A stretch of 64,000 bases of DNA from an uncultured Bacteroidales bacterium (GTDB lineage Bacteria > Bacteroidota > Bacteroidia > Bacteroidales > Bacteroidaceae), in NCBI GenBank assembly GCA_902773055.1, contig CACYCZ010000016.1:1-64000 (forward strand), read 5' to 3'. This document shows positions 14,346 to 20,054 of the stretch, piece after piece. Both the position numbers and the translations under genes were made by a program. Position 1 is the first letter of the stretch; every line of letters starts with the position of its first letter. The notes below the pieces were generated by a model, which ran no database searches, was not told the DNA's origin, and was given only the letters and a program-made list of their open reading frames with translations.

Positions 14346-14504
14346 GTTTCACATTTATTGACATCTTTTTCCCCCATTTCTTCCACCCCCTCCAGAAGGG
14401 CCTGTAGAAGGGGCAAAATTGGCAGGCCTGCGCGTTTTCACCAGTAGGCCTGCCAGTTTCAACGCGCAGGCCTGCCAGTGAAAACGCTTTGGGCAGAGAA
14501 AAAA
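14346..14504. repeat. family 2 repeat block, copy 1
   Basis: A block of about 160 bp shared with 42551-42712. It opens with CACATTTATT, continues with TCCAGAAGGG and AGGGGCAAA, then three 22-bp units each centred on AGGCCT (14424, 14446, 14468), and ends with CAGTGAAAACGC and GGGCAGAGAAAAAA. The units can form GCAGGCCTGC palindromes. It lies between the divergent C10 protease and ABC operon. The remaining gene-free sequence (14505-14820) shows no gene. Confidence 0.85.
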
Positions 14505-14820: not shown

Positions 14821-14853
14821 TTTGGCGGTTTAGTTTTAAATGTCATACCTTTG
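14821..14853 (+). promoter_or_regulatory. promoter of the ABC/GntR operon
   Basis: TTTG at 14821-14824 and TACCTTTG at 14846-14853 are 21 bp apart, matching the Bacteroidales consensus. The next base pairs begin the operator palindrome, so a bound regulator would cover the start site. Confidence 0.8.
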
Positions 14854-14855
14854 CA

Positions 14856-14877
14856 GTGTAATACTATACTATTACAC
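14856..14877. promoter_or_regulatory. palindromic operator, probable site of the GntR/YtrA regulator
   Basis: GTGTAATA, six bases, TATTACAC forms a perfect inverted repeat of 8-bp arms starting 2 bp after the -7 element. The outer GT...AC pattern is that of GntR-family sites. The operon encodes one YtrA-type GntR protein (16526-16888), making autorepression likely. Confidence 0.75.
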
Positions 14878-14905
14878 AATGAAACAACATAAAAACACAA
14901 ATAAT

Positions 14906-15745
14906 ATGATTGACATCAAGAACATTGACTATTCCTACAAAAAAGGGAAAAAGGTTTACACTGATTTTTCCCTGAACATTCCGGCGGGCGGCATCTACGG
15001 GTTGCTCGGACGCAACGGAACAGGCAAGAGCACCTTGCTCTATCTAATCTGCGGTTTGCTGAAACCCCAGAAAGGCTCGTGCCAAATCAACAACATCGAT
15101 GCATCGGAGCGCAACGTCGACATCCTGAAAGACATATTCCTCGTTCCAGAAGAGTTTGAGTTGCCTTCCTGCACTTTGAACACCTACGTCAGAATCAACA
15201 AGCCGTTCTACCCCAACTTCTCTGAGGAGCTTCTGAACCGTTGTCTTGAAGTATTCAGCCTGAGCAGGGACATCCACCTCAAAGCGCTTTCCATGGGCAT
15301 GAAGAAGAAAGTGTTTGTCAGCTTTGCCCTGGCCACACAGACCCGCCTGCTACTGATGGACGAGCCGACCAACGGACTGGACATTCCGTCCAAAAGCCAG
15401 TTTCGCAGAATTCTGTCATGGGTAGCGACTGAGGAACGGACCATCATCATCTCTACCCATCAGGTAAAAGATGTAGAACAACTTTTCGACCATTTTATCA
15501 TTATAGACGAAAACAATCTGTTGGCAGAGGCCAGCACAAACAAGATTACGGAAACATTCCGTTTTGAAATGCGCGATCTGTCTGAAATCAATGAAGATGA
15601 ATTATACAGCCGCCCGACATTCGGAGGAAAAGAAGTCATCTGTCTCAACCCGACAGGCGAAGAAACACCTGTCAATTTGGAACTGCTGTTTACAGCTCTT
15701 ATAGAAAAACCGGAAATATCTAAATATCTGAACAATGAAAAATAG
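14906..15745 (+). CDS. ABC transporter ATP-binding protein (YtrB-like)
   Basis: The protein of 279 residues has Walker A GRNGTGKS, a degenerate signature LSMGMKKK in place of LSGGQ, and Walker B LLLMDEPTNGLD followed by STHQ. It should power the permease encoded next, with which it overlaps by 11 bp. The ATG at 14906 is chosen since MIDIKNIDYSYKKG matches the usual family start; an in-frame ATG at 14879 would add nine residues, and anything before 14853 lies in the promoter. The regulator-linked setting resembles Gram-positive ytr operons that respond to cell-wall stress, but the substrate is unknown. Confidence 0.85.
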   Translation: MIDIKNIDYSYKKGKKVYTDFSLNIPAGGIYGLLGRNGTGKSTLLYLICGLLKPQKGSCQINNIDASERNVDILKDIFLVPEEFELPSCTLNTYVRINKPFYPNFSEELLNRCLEVFSLSRDIHLKALSMGMKKKVFVSFALATQTRLLLMDEPTNGLDIPSKSQFRRILSWVATEERTIIISTHQVKDVEQLFDHFIIIDENNLLAEASTNKITETFRFEMRDLSEINEDELYSRPTFGGKEVICLNPTGEETPVNLELLFTALIEKPEISKYLNNEK

Positions 15746-16529
15746 TATCAATTTATATCGCATAAAGCATCTCCTGATGCAACAGACCTATAGCCTGAAG
15801 TCCAGTATCCTGGCTCTGATGGCAGGCTACCTCCTGGGTAATCTCGGATTCTTCGTAGCGTGTTCATACCGTTATTGGAACCATTCAGGTTGTGCTGACA
15901 GCAATGCCTGTGAAACATGGGGAGCCTTCCTGTTTGCTTTTTACCTCATATATATGTCTATAGCATTCTCCATGACCTTCATGGGACTTGAAACATCACA
16001 GAAACGCATAGCATTCCTCATGTTGCCTGCCAGCAACCTGGAGAAGTTTATCTCACGCATCATCATCTTTGCCTGTGTTGGCATCATCGGCGGATTCATT
16101 ACCTATGCCATCGCCGATGGCATCCACCTCTTCATAGACCAGATTGTCCTGGGGCACACTGCATACAGCACAATCCCGGCGTTCTTCGGCAGAAGCTGCA
16201 ATATCGGCATTGACGGCCAGACCGTTGACTTCAGCGGCCACACAGCCTATATGATAACATTCTTTATACTATGCTCCGCCGCTTTCAGGAAGAAACCCTT
16301 GATTAAGGGCATCGGACTCTCCGCAATCATCTACTTCTTGTGCGGTGTCACCTTAGTGAAATTAATCAACTATCTGAAAGACACGGACAACCTCTACTAC
16401 CTCAACTCTGACGACTACCAAATAGACGACATCAATATGTTTTGGTGGGTCAACATCGCCTTCTGGCTGATGGCCCTGCTGAACATATGGTGGAGCTACA
16501 CCATCATGAAAAAAATAAAAGCAATATGA
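15735..16529 (+). CDS. ABC transporter membrane protein
   Basis: The protein of 264 residues has about six hydrophobic segments and an N-terminal cytoplasmic start (IKHLLMQQTY) typical of ABC-2-type permease subunits in Bacteroidetes. It overlaps the ATPase gene by 11 bp and its stop overlaps the GntR start (ATGA). It is probably the membrane half of the transporter. No substrate motif is visible. Confidence 0.75.
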   Translation: MKNSINLYRIKHLLMQQTYSLKSSILALMAGYLLGNLGFFVACSYRYWNHSGCADSNACETWGAFLFAFYLIYMSIAFSMTFMGLETSQKRIAFLMLPASNLEKFISRIIIFACVGIIGGFITYAIADGIHLFIDQIVLGHTAYSTIPAFFGRSCNIGIDGQTVDFSGHTAYMITFFILCSAAFRKKPLIKGIGLSAIIYFLCGVTLVKLINYLKDTDNLYYLNSDDYQIDDINMFWWVNIAFWLMALLNIWWSYTIMKKIKAI

Positions 16530-16888
16530 ATTTCAAACAAAATATCCCAATATACATCCAGATAGCTGAACGTATCATGGACGAAATCCTGACCGGAATT
16601 TATCCAGAAGACGGACGCATCCCATCAGTCAGAGAATATGGCATGGCACTTGAAGTAAACGTCAACACCATGGTCAAGGTCTACGACCACCTCACCTCAA
16701 ACGGACTGATATACAACAAACGCGGCTTGGGCTACTTCGTCTGCGAAGGAGCACCTGCGCAAATACGTGAGATGCGCAAGACACATTTCTTCTCCGAGTT
16801 CCTGCCACAGTTGGCAGAGAAGATGGACCAACTCCATATCACCGTAGAAGACATGAATAAGGAACTTGCCAAATATCTGAACAAATAA
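16526..16888 (+). CDS. GntR-family transcriptional regulator, YtrA subfamily
   Basis: This short protein of 120 residues has an N-terminal winged helix (IPIYIQIAERIMDEILTG, then IPSVREYGMALEVNVNTMVKVYDHL) and a reduced C-terminal dimerisation helix, the layout of YtrA-type regulators. The start at 16526 overlaps the permease stop; the frame extends upstream inside the permease but that part is not GntR-like. It probably binds the palindrome at 14856-14877 and represses its own operon. The inducing signal is unknown. Confidence 0.9.
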   Translation: MNFKQNIPIYIQIAERIMDEILTGIYPEDGRIPSVREYGMALEVNVNTMVKVYDHLTSNGLIYNKRGLGYFVCEGAPAQIREMRKTHFFSEFLPQLAEKMDQLHITVEDMNKELAKYLNK

Positions 16889-16911: not shown

Positions 16912-17688
16912 ATGAAACCTATTATTAAAGTTACACTATCCATTTTGATTCCCATCATCATCACACTCGCCATTATCGGCGCATATATCACCCATGCCAT
17001 AGCACAGTCAAAAGTAAAATACTCTGCCGAAGAACTTGCCATGGTGAGCAAGACCCTGTCCTTCCCAGAGGGCATCGAGGAACTGAAAGCTTCGACAGGT
17101 GTCAACATCACCTACCACGTGAAAGACACAGCAGGATTCAAGGTTATCCTTACTGCCACAAAAGCAGGGATAGAATACCTCAAAGCCGAAAACAAGGACG
17201 GCGTACTAAAAATATACTTTGATAAAAAGCATCCCAACAGAGCCATACTCAAAGAAAATCACATTACCATCACAGGGCCCGCCATCCCTTGCCTGGACAT
17301 GTCATCCGGAAGCAATTTGACGGCACGCGGCGCCTATCGCGGACTAACTTCAGTCGATGCCAACAGCGGAGCGAACGTCACTGCAGACAGCATTTTGGCA
17401 TCAAACATTGACATTGATCTTTCAAGCGGAGCCTATGCCCAACTGAAAGCATACGACTGCGACTCCATTAAAGGAGAAGCCTCCAGCGGAGCAACACTTA
17501 AGATAAGCGGCAACCACACCCGCTACATTGACTTGGATGTCAGCAGCGGAGCCAGCATCAATGCCACAGGAATCAGGGCACAAACAGGCAAGATAGAGGC
17601 TTCCAGCGGTGGAGACATAGAAGGTAATATCACACAGCTGACAACGACAAGCATCACTTCAGGAGGCTCTTTCAAAAACAAAGAATAA
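16912..17688 (+). CDS. membrane-anchored GIN-domain (DUF2807) protein
   Basis: The protein of 258 residues has an N-terminal membrane segment (about 5-28, no clear cleavage site), then a repeating right-handed beta structure with SSGA/NSGA turns about every 22 residues (DMSSGSN, DANSGAN, DLSSGAY, EASSGAT, DVSSGAS, EASSGGD). This is the head-GIN/DUF2807 pattern of Bacteroidetes, whose function is not established. It would face the periplasm. It lies 23 bp after the regulator gene and 143 bp before the barrel gene. Confidence 0.8.
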   Translation: MKPIIKVTLSILIPIIITLAIIGAYITHAIAQSKVKYSAEELAMVSKTLSFPEGIEELKASTGVNITYHVKDTAGFKVILTATKAGIEYLKAENKDGVLKIYFDKKHPNRAILKENHITITGPAIPCLDMSSGSNLTARGAYRGLTSVDANSGANVTADSILASNIDIDLSSGAYAQLKAYDCDSIKGEASSGATLKISGNHTRYIDLDVSSGASINATGIRAQTGKIEASSGGDIEGNITQLTTTSITSGGSFKNKE

Positions 17689-17831: not shown

Positions 17832-20054
17832 ATGAAAAACTTTATTATAATCATCCTCACCGGCATATATGCCCTGACAGGCTCAGCCATGCCTGCCGAC
17901 AGCATCAGGCTCAAAGAAAAGAAACTCAAGACAACCACCGTAGTTGCGCAACGCCGTACCATCAAGACCGACAACGACAAGACTACATACGACCTGGATG
18001 CCGACCCCTCCACTAAAACAGAAAACCTGCTGGAAGTGTTGCGCAAAGTGCCTATGGTAACCGTGGACGGCGAAGACAACATCAAGGTAAAAGGCTCTGG
18101 CTCCTTCAAAGTCTACGTTGACGGCAAGCCAAACACCATGATGTCGACCGACCCGTCCAAGATAATGAAATCCTATCCCGCCGGCAGCGTTTCCAAGATA
18201 GAAGTCATCACCGACCCTGGCGCAAAATATGACGGCGAAGGTGTAGCAGGCATCATCAACATCATAACAAACAAGAAGATGTACACAAGCGGATGGTCGC
18301 TCACTCCTACTTTGGGCCTGAGCAATCAAGAAAACTACGGAGGATTCAACGGTATGGTCAAGATGAACAGATTGACAGTCTCATCCAATTTCATTTACGG
18401 GTCAGGCCGTCAGAAAAAGACCACTGGTCATTCCGACTATGTCTTCAAGCACAGCGACGACCTGCACACACTTTATTCCCTATTCAGTGCGAAACCCAAA
18501 TATGATGTTGAAATAGGCGGCTTGGAAGCTTCTTACGAAATCGACGAAAAGAACCTGCTCAGCATCAGTGCCAGCCTCTTCTGCCTGGGTGTCAGGTATG
18601 ATGCACATGCCCTGTACAACATGTTCAATGCCGACGGCACAGAAATGTATTCCTACCATCTGGACAACCCCCACCGTGAGCGTACTTACAACTGGAACAT
18701 CGGCACCGACTACCAGCACAAATTCAACAAGGAAGGCGAGCTGCTGACCTTCAGCTACCGCTTTACCGACAGCCCCACCCACAACCGTACAACAACTATC
18801 TATCAGGACATCACAGGGGAGCAATATCTTGCTGCCGGGTTAGCCAACAGAAAGGTATCCCCCGAAAATACCAGCAGAGAACACACCGGTCAGATAGACT
18901 ATGCCCTTCCACTCACCAAAACACAAGCATTGAACAGCGGAGTCAAGATGATATGTCGCACCAACGAAACTGACACAAAGCAATGGGACTGCCCGATCGC
19001 AACACTCGGCCTATGGACATACAACGATGGCCGTTCCTTCCATTACCGCAACACCAGCAATATCTACAGCGCCTACATGGAGCATACTGCCAATGTCGGC
19101 AGACTCAGCACGACAATCGGACTGCGCTACGAATACAATGCCATGAAGGTAAAATATCTTGACGGCAAACGACCTCAATACCATCGCGACCTCAGCGACC
19201 TTCTGCCTTCTGTCAAGATTGGCTACAAGTTTAATGAAAGTGAAATGCTGAAACTGGGATTCAACACACGCATATCCCGCCCCGACATCAGCATGATGTC
19301 ACCATATATAGACAATACCGACGGCATCAACCAAAGCTACGGCAATCCCGACCTCAACACAGAGAAAGCATACAATGCAACCCTCGGATACAGCAATTTC
19401 GGACAGAAGTTTTCGCTTAATGCAGAACTCAACACACGGTTCATGACAAACGGAATCACGGCCTACAGTTTCATGGATACCGAAAAACACATCAACCAGA
19501 CCTATGACAACTTCATGCACCAGCGCCAGGCAGGAATAAACCTGTTTGTCAACTGGACATTTACCCGTACGACAACCATGTCGATGAATGCACAAGGCGG
19601 CTACAAATACTATGCTGTCAAGCAAATCAATGCGCGCAACGACGGCTGGGGCGGCAGCATATACCTTGACCTGCAACAACGCCTGCCCTGGCGCATGAAG
19701 GCATCAATGCAAGGATATTACTCAAGCAGAACTCCTCTGCTGCAGGGAACACAGCATACCTATCGGTATCACGGCATCAGCCTGTCAAGAAACTTCCTGG
19801 CAGAAGACCGCCTGAGCATCACGATAGGAGCCTATAATTTTATCTATCCCACCGCAACTTGGGGCGAAACCACAGAGACCGAAGCCTATACCCTGCACAG
19901 CAAAAGTAGACACAATGCACTCAAGATAGGCATCAATGCAAAATGGCGTTTTGGCAAATTGCAGGCTACCGTAAAGAAGACACAACGCACCATCGACAAT
20001 GACGACAAGACACATGTCAAGGATAATAAAGACGGCATCGGCAAAGGAATGTAA
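17832..20054 (+). CDS. TonB-receptor-like outer-membrane beta-barrel protein
   Basis: The protein of 740 residues has a signal peptide (to about residue 20), a plug-like domain (YDLDADPSTKTENLLEVLRKVPMVTVDGEDNIKVKG style, with DGKPN and GVAGIINIITNKK) and a long barrel of about 550 residues. It belongs to the outer-membrane barrel group related to TonB-dependent receptors, without an N-terminal carboxypeptidase-like domain. The ATG at 17832 is preferred since MKNFIIIIL begins a signal peptide; the frame is open from 17742. Last gene of the GntR-controlled operon. The ligand is unknown. Confidence 0.8.
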   Translation: MKNFIIIILTGIYALTGSAMPADSIRLKEKKLKTTTVVAQRRTIKTDNDKTTYDLDADPSTKTENLLEVLRKVPMVTVDGEDNIKVKGSGSFKVYVDGKPNTMMSTDPSKIMKSYPAGSVSKIEVITDPGAKYDGEGVAGIINIITNKKMYTSGWSLTPTLGLSNQENYGGFNGMVKMNRLTVSSNFIYGSGRQKKTTGHSDYVFKHSDDLHTLYSLFSAKPKYDVEIGGLEASYEIDEKNLLSISASLFCLGVRYDAHALYNMFNADGTEMYSYHLDNPHRERTYNWNIGTDYQHKFNKEGELLTFSYRFTDSPTHNRTTTIYQDITGEQYLAAGLANRKVSPENTSREHTGQIDYALPLTKTQALNSGVKMICRTNETDTKQWDCPIATLGLWTYNDGRSFHYRNTSNIYSAYMEHTANVGRLSTTIGLRYEYNAMKVKYLDGKRPQYHRDLSDLLPSVKIGYKFNESEMLKLGFNTRISRPDISMMSPYIDNTDGINQSYGNPDLNTEKAYNATLGYSNFGQKFSLNAELNTRFMTNGITAYSFMDTEKHINQTYDNFMHQRQAGINLFVNWTFTRTTTMSMNAQGGYKYYAVKQINARNDGWGGSIYLDLQQRLPWRMKASMQGYYSSRTPLLQGTQHTYRYHGISLSRNFLAEDRLSITIGAYNFIYPTATWGETTETEAYTLHSKSRHNALKIGINAKWRFGKLQATVKKTQRTIDNDDKTHVKDNKDGIGKGM

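Follow-up and report, generated by a model that had tools for sequence, protein, structure and literature searches.

Does the palindrome that lies directly behind the promoter of an ABC transporter operon serve as the operator of the small GntR regulator encoded in the same operon? The question is raised by a locus in the window analysed here, a 64,000-nucleotide stretch of DNA from an uncultured Bacteroidales bacterium. The palindrome, GTGTAATACTATACTATTACAC, is complementary at 10 of its 11 positions. The first-pass annotation had described it as GTGTAATA-N6-TATTACAC beginning 2 bp after a -7 element and had assigned a 120-residue GntR protein to the operon; both descriptions hold (Table 1). 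We consider it highly probable (about 0.92) that the YtrA-type GntR protein encoded in the operon is a repressor and has its operator in this palindrome. The computational support covers the site, its conservation, its register, the covariation between protein and DNA, and the fold of the regulator; binding, repression, signal and function we infer.

Table 1. Coordinates of the promoter elements, the predicted operator and the genes behind it in the window
Feature	Position	Strand	Basis or remark
-33-like TTTG, 21 bp 5' of the -7 box	14821..14824	+	Sequence; family logo
-7 box TACCTTTG, consensus TAnnTTTG	14846..14853	+	TAnnTTTG directly 5' of the operator in most of 171 loci
Predicted operator palindrome GTGTAATA-CTATAC-TATTACAC	14856..14877	+	Sequence and family conservation
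ABC transporter ATPase (abc)	14906..15745	+	PF00005, 7.9e-23
Membrane permease subunit	15735..16529	+	Assigned by position and hydrophobic sequence
YtrA-type GntR regulator, 120 aa (gntR)	16526..16888	+	PF00392, E 2e-8
DUF2807 (head GIN domain) protein	16912..17688	+	PF10988, 3.7e-20; 23 bp past gntR
Outer-membrane beta-barrel / TonB-receptor-like protein	17832..20054	+	PF14905, 1.7e-70; 143 bp past the DUF2807 gene

The ATPase gene has an alternative start, an in-frame ATG at 14879, immediately 3' of the palindrome. The permease found no match in Pfam or NCBIfam. The core of abc, permease gene and gntR recurs generally among relatives, whereas the DUF2807 and outer-membrane part does not; in the window, the DUF2807 gene probably belongs to the same operon as gntR and the beta-barrel gene possibly does. 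The label of an envelope operon is suggested by the gene content, namely an exporter-like ABC ATPase, a permease, a DUF2807 protein and an outer-membrane beta-barrel. By analogy with related systems described below, the operon of the window probably encodes an exporter and is inducible and autorepressed. Positions 14400-14485, which separate it from the gene upstream, contain GCGCAGGCCTGCCAG, two copies of which face each other as an inverted pair near 14419-14478. This is an interspersed repeat of the genome, with 42 exact copies and 19 one-mismatch copies among the matches listed, and none for the reversed control.

A single palindrome alone has a rarity at the level of base composition and is weak evidence for an operator. 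Within the window it is the sole match at up to 3 mismatches; 0.18 matches were expected by shuffling, and at least one match occurred in 17 of 100 shuffled windows. The genome of the same bacterium (2.6 Mb) contains exactly one exact match, and its matches at up to 3 mismatches number 9, against 9 for the reversed control. With these two counts equal, the sequence by itself is no proof of an operator. A larger regulon in this genome was considered and rejected, as no second site rises above the control level. A search with the A1 profile at E 0.01 found no second YtrA-type gene in the genome; a search with the GntR sequence by itself counted one further match in G000, which is not among the matches listed.

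What is decisive here is that the palindrome is conserved in front of orthologous operons, which places it far beyond chance. The GntR protein was matched in 138 of 201 genomes of the family. The 140 stretches from matched genomes and 80 loci from named genomes made up a set of 220 loci, which contained 209 distinct gntR loci; 195 of these have abc upstream on the same strand, and 192 were long enough to scan. The pattern GTGTNNTA-N6-TANNACAC was found upstream of abc, at no more than one mismatch, in 171 of the 192 loci (exactly in 129). The reversed pattern upstream of abc gave 0/192, and so did the original pattern inside abc. Lack of conservation upstream of orthologous operons had been named as what would speak against the proposed operator, and the proposal has survived this comparison. 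The equal counts of 9 and 9 in the bacterium's own genome would fit a chance palindrome beside a promoter, but with 171/192 against 0/192 in both controls this explanation is rejected, and we regard its probability as negligible. Among the remaining 21 loci, 13 have a strict -7 box and site farther upstream and 5 have a site with 2-3 mismatches near abc; in three of the 192 scanned loci (L064, L082 and L154), no site was found.

Only the 6-bp core spacing is enriched among the 192 loci, and a core longer by one base (spacer 7) was found in none of them at up to one mismatch. The pattern of promoter plus operator occurs in 124 of the 201 family genomes and not at all in the reversed control. 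In 163 of the 171 loci the palindrome begins exactly 6 bp after the first base of TTTG in the -7 box, whereas the interval between palindrome and start codon ranges from 1 to 277 bp. The family consensus, read from the logo and base counts, is TTTG-N20-TAnnTTTGCA-GTGTACTA-N6-TAGTACACT, with T/T/T/G/G enriched at -34 to -30 relative to the operator. Within the family, this locking of the predicted operator to the promoter is an unusual point. A limited literature search found nothing related to GTGTACTA together with GntR, which is not proof of its absence from print.

Several loci of the family carry variants of this arrangement. L053 and L083, both of genus g2, have a second operator-like palindrome upstream of the -7 box (GTGTATTGCTTGCATAGTACAC and GTGTATTACTTGGATAGTACAC, respectively), so that the promoter core has a site on either side. 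None of the 171 loci has mirror -7 boxes around the operator. At G005:C1:2194928-2194961 and G108:C6:17563-17596, an operator has -7-like TTGC on either side, facing each other, which suggests converging promoters over one site. A divergent pair of operators with -7 boxes, about 230 bp apart and on opposite strands, occurs at each of G023:C45:51799-52057 and G049:C48:43592-43850. Finally, G014, G081, G141 and G155 have second gntR loci whose proteins are 40-42% identical to the window protein and whose sites are of another type, for example GTGTCTTA...TAGGACAC. This suggests diverged specificity of the paralogues.

In a transcriptome study of Flavobacterium (PMC9723704), the -7 box occupies -12 to -5 of sigma-A promoters. 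Because the -7 box of the window is taken as -12 to -5 accordingly, the palindrome would span -2 to +20, and transcription is predicted to start inside the upstream half-site, at about 14858. This placement over the predicted start fits repression. It also raises the possibility of an RNA hairpin: the inverted repeat, located where the mRNA is predicted to begin, might control stability or translation. In 15 of the 171 loci, such as L053, L058 and L068, the ABC start codon follows 1 bp past the palindrome, so that little of the 5' untranslated region would lie outside the operator in these loci. However, the stem is often broken: position 6 is unpaired in 73 of the 171 loci and position 5 in 46. 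These two positions show a weak excess of Watson-Crick pairs over shuffled arms (123 vs 109 at position 5, 83 vs 68 at position 6), and the other stem positions pair no more than shuffled arms do. Moreover, the 5' region in the window folds no better than its shuffles (z -0.62), and a hairpin leaves the covariation described below unexplained. With broken pairs and no folding excess, the hairpin is rejected as an explanation and retains only a slim chance.

The operator reading gains a link between the GntR protein and the DNA from residue 46 of the regulator. In the window this residue is Val (codon 16661-16663), the first of the predicted recognition helix 46-58. Across the 171 proteins, the mutual information between residue 46 and base 6 of the downstream half-site is 0.76 bits above shuffles, and the next column reaches 0.45. 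With V, I or L at residue 46, the base is A in 33 of 37 cases; with T, it is C in 42 of 45; with P, it is T in all 18. Alanine goes with a mixture (31 C, 27 T and 7 A). The window obeys the rule, having V46 and A at base 6 of both half-sites. To limit the influence of shared ancestry, the base 6 of a clade was also predicted solely from the remaining clades. Residue 46 reached an accuracy of 0.71, 0.75 and 0.85 for 70, 42 and 26 clusters; the next best column attained 0.54, 0.54 and 0.61, and the baseline was 0.40, 0.41 and 0.48. In a cruder test on sister pairs, residue 46 did not stand out, ranking 6th of 93 columns; we judge this test to be confounded by the divergence of the pairs. Through the conserved PSxRE and NxNT motifs, residue 46 aligns with helix-turn-helix position 38, which corresponds to FadR Arg-45, listed in a table of PMC4494728 as making a base-specific contact. 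The YtrA section of that study names positions 27, 28, 37, 39 and 44, whereas position 38 stands out here. The covariation ties the operon's GntR to the palindrome and lends indirect support to the predicted binding and repression.

The same observations bear on the possibility that the site is read by some regulator other than the operon's GntR. The three loci without a detectable site would be consistent with this. However, the A1 profile finds just one YtrA-type protein in the genome of the window, where only one exact site exists, residue 46 of GntR outperforms every other column in predicting base 6 across clades, and the motif resembles the repeat AGTGTA-13bp-TACACT reported for YtrA of Bacillus subtilis (PMC8060467). 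A different regulator is therefore hardly probable, and the operon's own GntR remains the preferred reader of the palindrome.

The upstream half-site follows other rules. Its base 6 is not predicted by residue 46, which ranks 68 to 100 in the cross-clade comparison; the half remains near GTGTACTA, with C at base 6 in 115 of the 171 loci. Among 30 loci with V46, 17 combine upstream C with downstream A, and one has the opposite combination. A promoter preference that would fix C at this position is unsupported, as promoter-like sites elsewhere have, at the same offset, A at a frequency of 0.60 and C at 0.02 (96 sequences, which may be partly interrelated). This polarity of the half-sites is an unusual point and a puzzle, as a simple symmetric dimer would not predict it. 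One tentative explanation, possible rather than likely, is that promoter and operator form a fused module whose half-sites have different masters. Polarised by transcription, such a module would let the repressor act on the opened or initiating complex and not on recruitment. The downstream half (about +13 to +20) would then follow residue 46, whereas the upstream half, lying in DNA melted by the polymerase, would be held near GTGTACTA whatever the regulator.

As for the class of the regulator, its N-terminal winged helix-turn-helix is recognised as PF00392 at residues 10-72, above the cut-off. The structural model (mean pLDDT 93) has helices at 9-23, 35-42, 46-58, 76-102 and 107-118. According to PMC4494728, the C-terminal domain of the YtrA subfamily is reduced to about 50 residues, which form two alpha-helices; in the model, the part behind the winged helix-turn-helix is likewise reduced to two helices, 76-102 and 107-118 of 120 residues. 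The nearest proteins of known structure are short GntR proteins. The closest of them, 3ic7, is a GntR-family regulator of Bacteroides thetaiotaomicron (phmmer 3.2e-30, Foldseek 9.4e-11, 42% identity). Suvorova et al. (2015, PMC4494728) described the motifs of the YtrA subfamily as long palindromes, present as a single site, that accompany ABC operons. The same features are seen here: gntR shares its operon with ABC transporter genes, and a long palindrome with GT/AC far from its centre lies upstream of the operon in 171/192 loci. The regulator and its site are thus a member of the already known YtrA type.

Comparison with individual members of the subfamily shows both likeness and difference. 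YtrA of B. subtilis binds the palindrome AGTGTA-13bp-TACACT in autorepression (PMC8060467, PMC12772383), and its operon ytrGABCDEF likewise combines a YtrA-subfamily GntR gene with an ABC transporter. The strict spacing of that operator is not found here, where AGTGTA and TACACT are separated by 12 bp in an even palindrome. B. subtilis YtrA also controls a second operon, ywoBCD, whereas the genome studied here has one exact site, and the gene order and accessory genes of ytrGABCDEF differ from those in the window. PmtR of Staphylococcus aureus is a YtrA-subfamily repressor with a 36-bp site that overlaps the transcription start (PMC5080381). The ATPase and regulator of the window match PmtA and PmtR (NF047563) weakly, at 133 and 46.7 bits; NCBIfam sets its cut-offs far higher, at 350 and 200 bits, and by that test they are not orthologues. 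Both relatives bear on the direction of control. The location of the palindrome, downstream of the -7 box and over the predicted start, argues against activation of the operon by GntR from this site; PmtR represses from a start-overlapping site, and YtrA acts as a repressor in B. subtilis. We consider activation very improbable.

Under repression, a GntR dimer would read a pair of GTGTAATA half-sites spaced at about 14 bp. RNA polymerase would itself contact the -33 and -7 boxes, and the dimer, bound over roughly -2 to +20 and so over the start site and the initially transcribed DNA, would block promoter opening or polymerase escape. As gntR is the third gene of the operon, the repression would therefore be autoregulatory. 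A signal, perhaps membrane or cell-envelope stress as in relatives from Firmicutes, would free the DNA of the dimer and thereby induce the exporter together with its associated envelope proteins.

Outside the family, the arrangement is less uniform. The strict pattern of promoter plus operator (at most one mismatch) was found in 11 of 296 genomes of the phylum. Three of these are in the family; five (L286-L290, families f2 and f11) have it directly upstream of an abc homologue, two (L291 and L292) are without an abc match, and a further one is in G359. The fixed register is also present in the four f2 loci, L287-L290, and in a variant form (ATTGCA) in L286 of f11. A strong GntR match was found in 27 non-family genomes, five of which are those of L286-L290; 20 of the other 22 were examined, the two weakest being left out. 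Among these 20 loci, 12 have a site at up to one mismatch that starts 27-46 bp before abc, 5 have a site with 2-3 mismatches, and none was found in 3. The -7 register is not generally kept in them, and a phylum-wide fixed register is rejected. Residue 46 is P in 19 of the 20. Of the 16 P46 loci that have a site close to abc, 11 show T and 5 show C at downstream base 6, as read by eye.

The locus thus offers a concrete operator and a one-residue specificity rule for regulators that are common in the family. It would add Bacteroidota to the range of the YtrA operator type; the YtrA set of PMC4494728 does not cover them (its table gives 0 Bacteroidetes among the YtrA proteins analysed). It also suggests the type of DNA ligand for close relatives of the B. 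thetaiotaomicron protein 3ic7.
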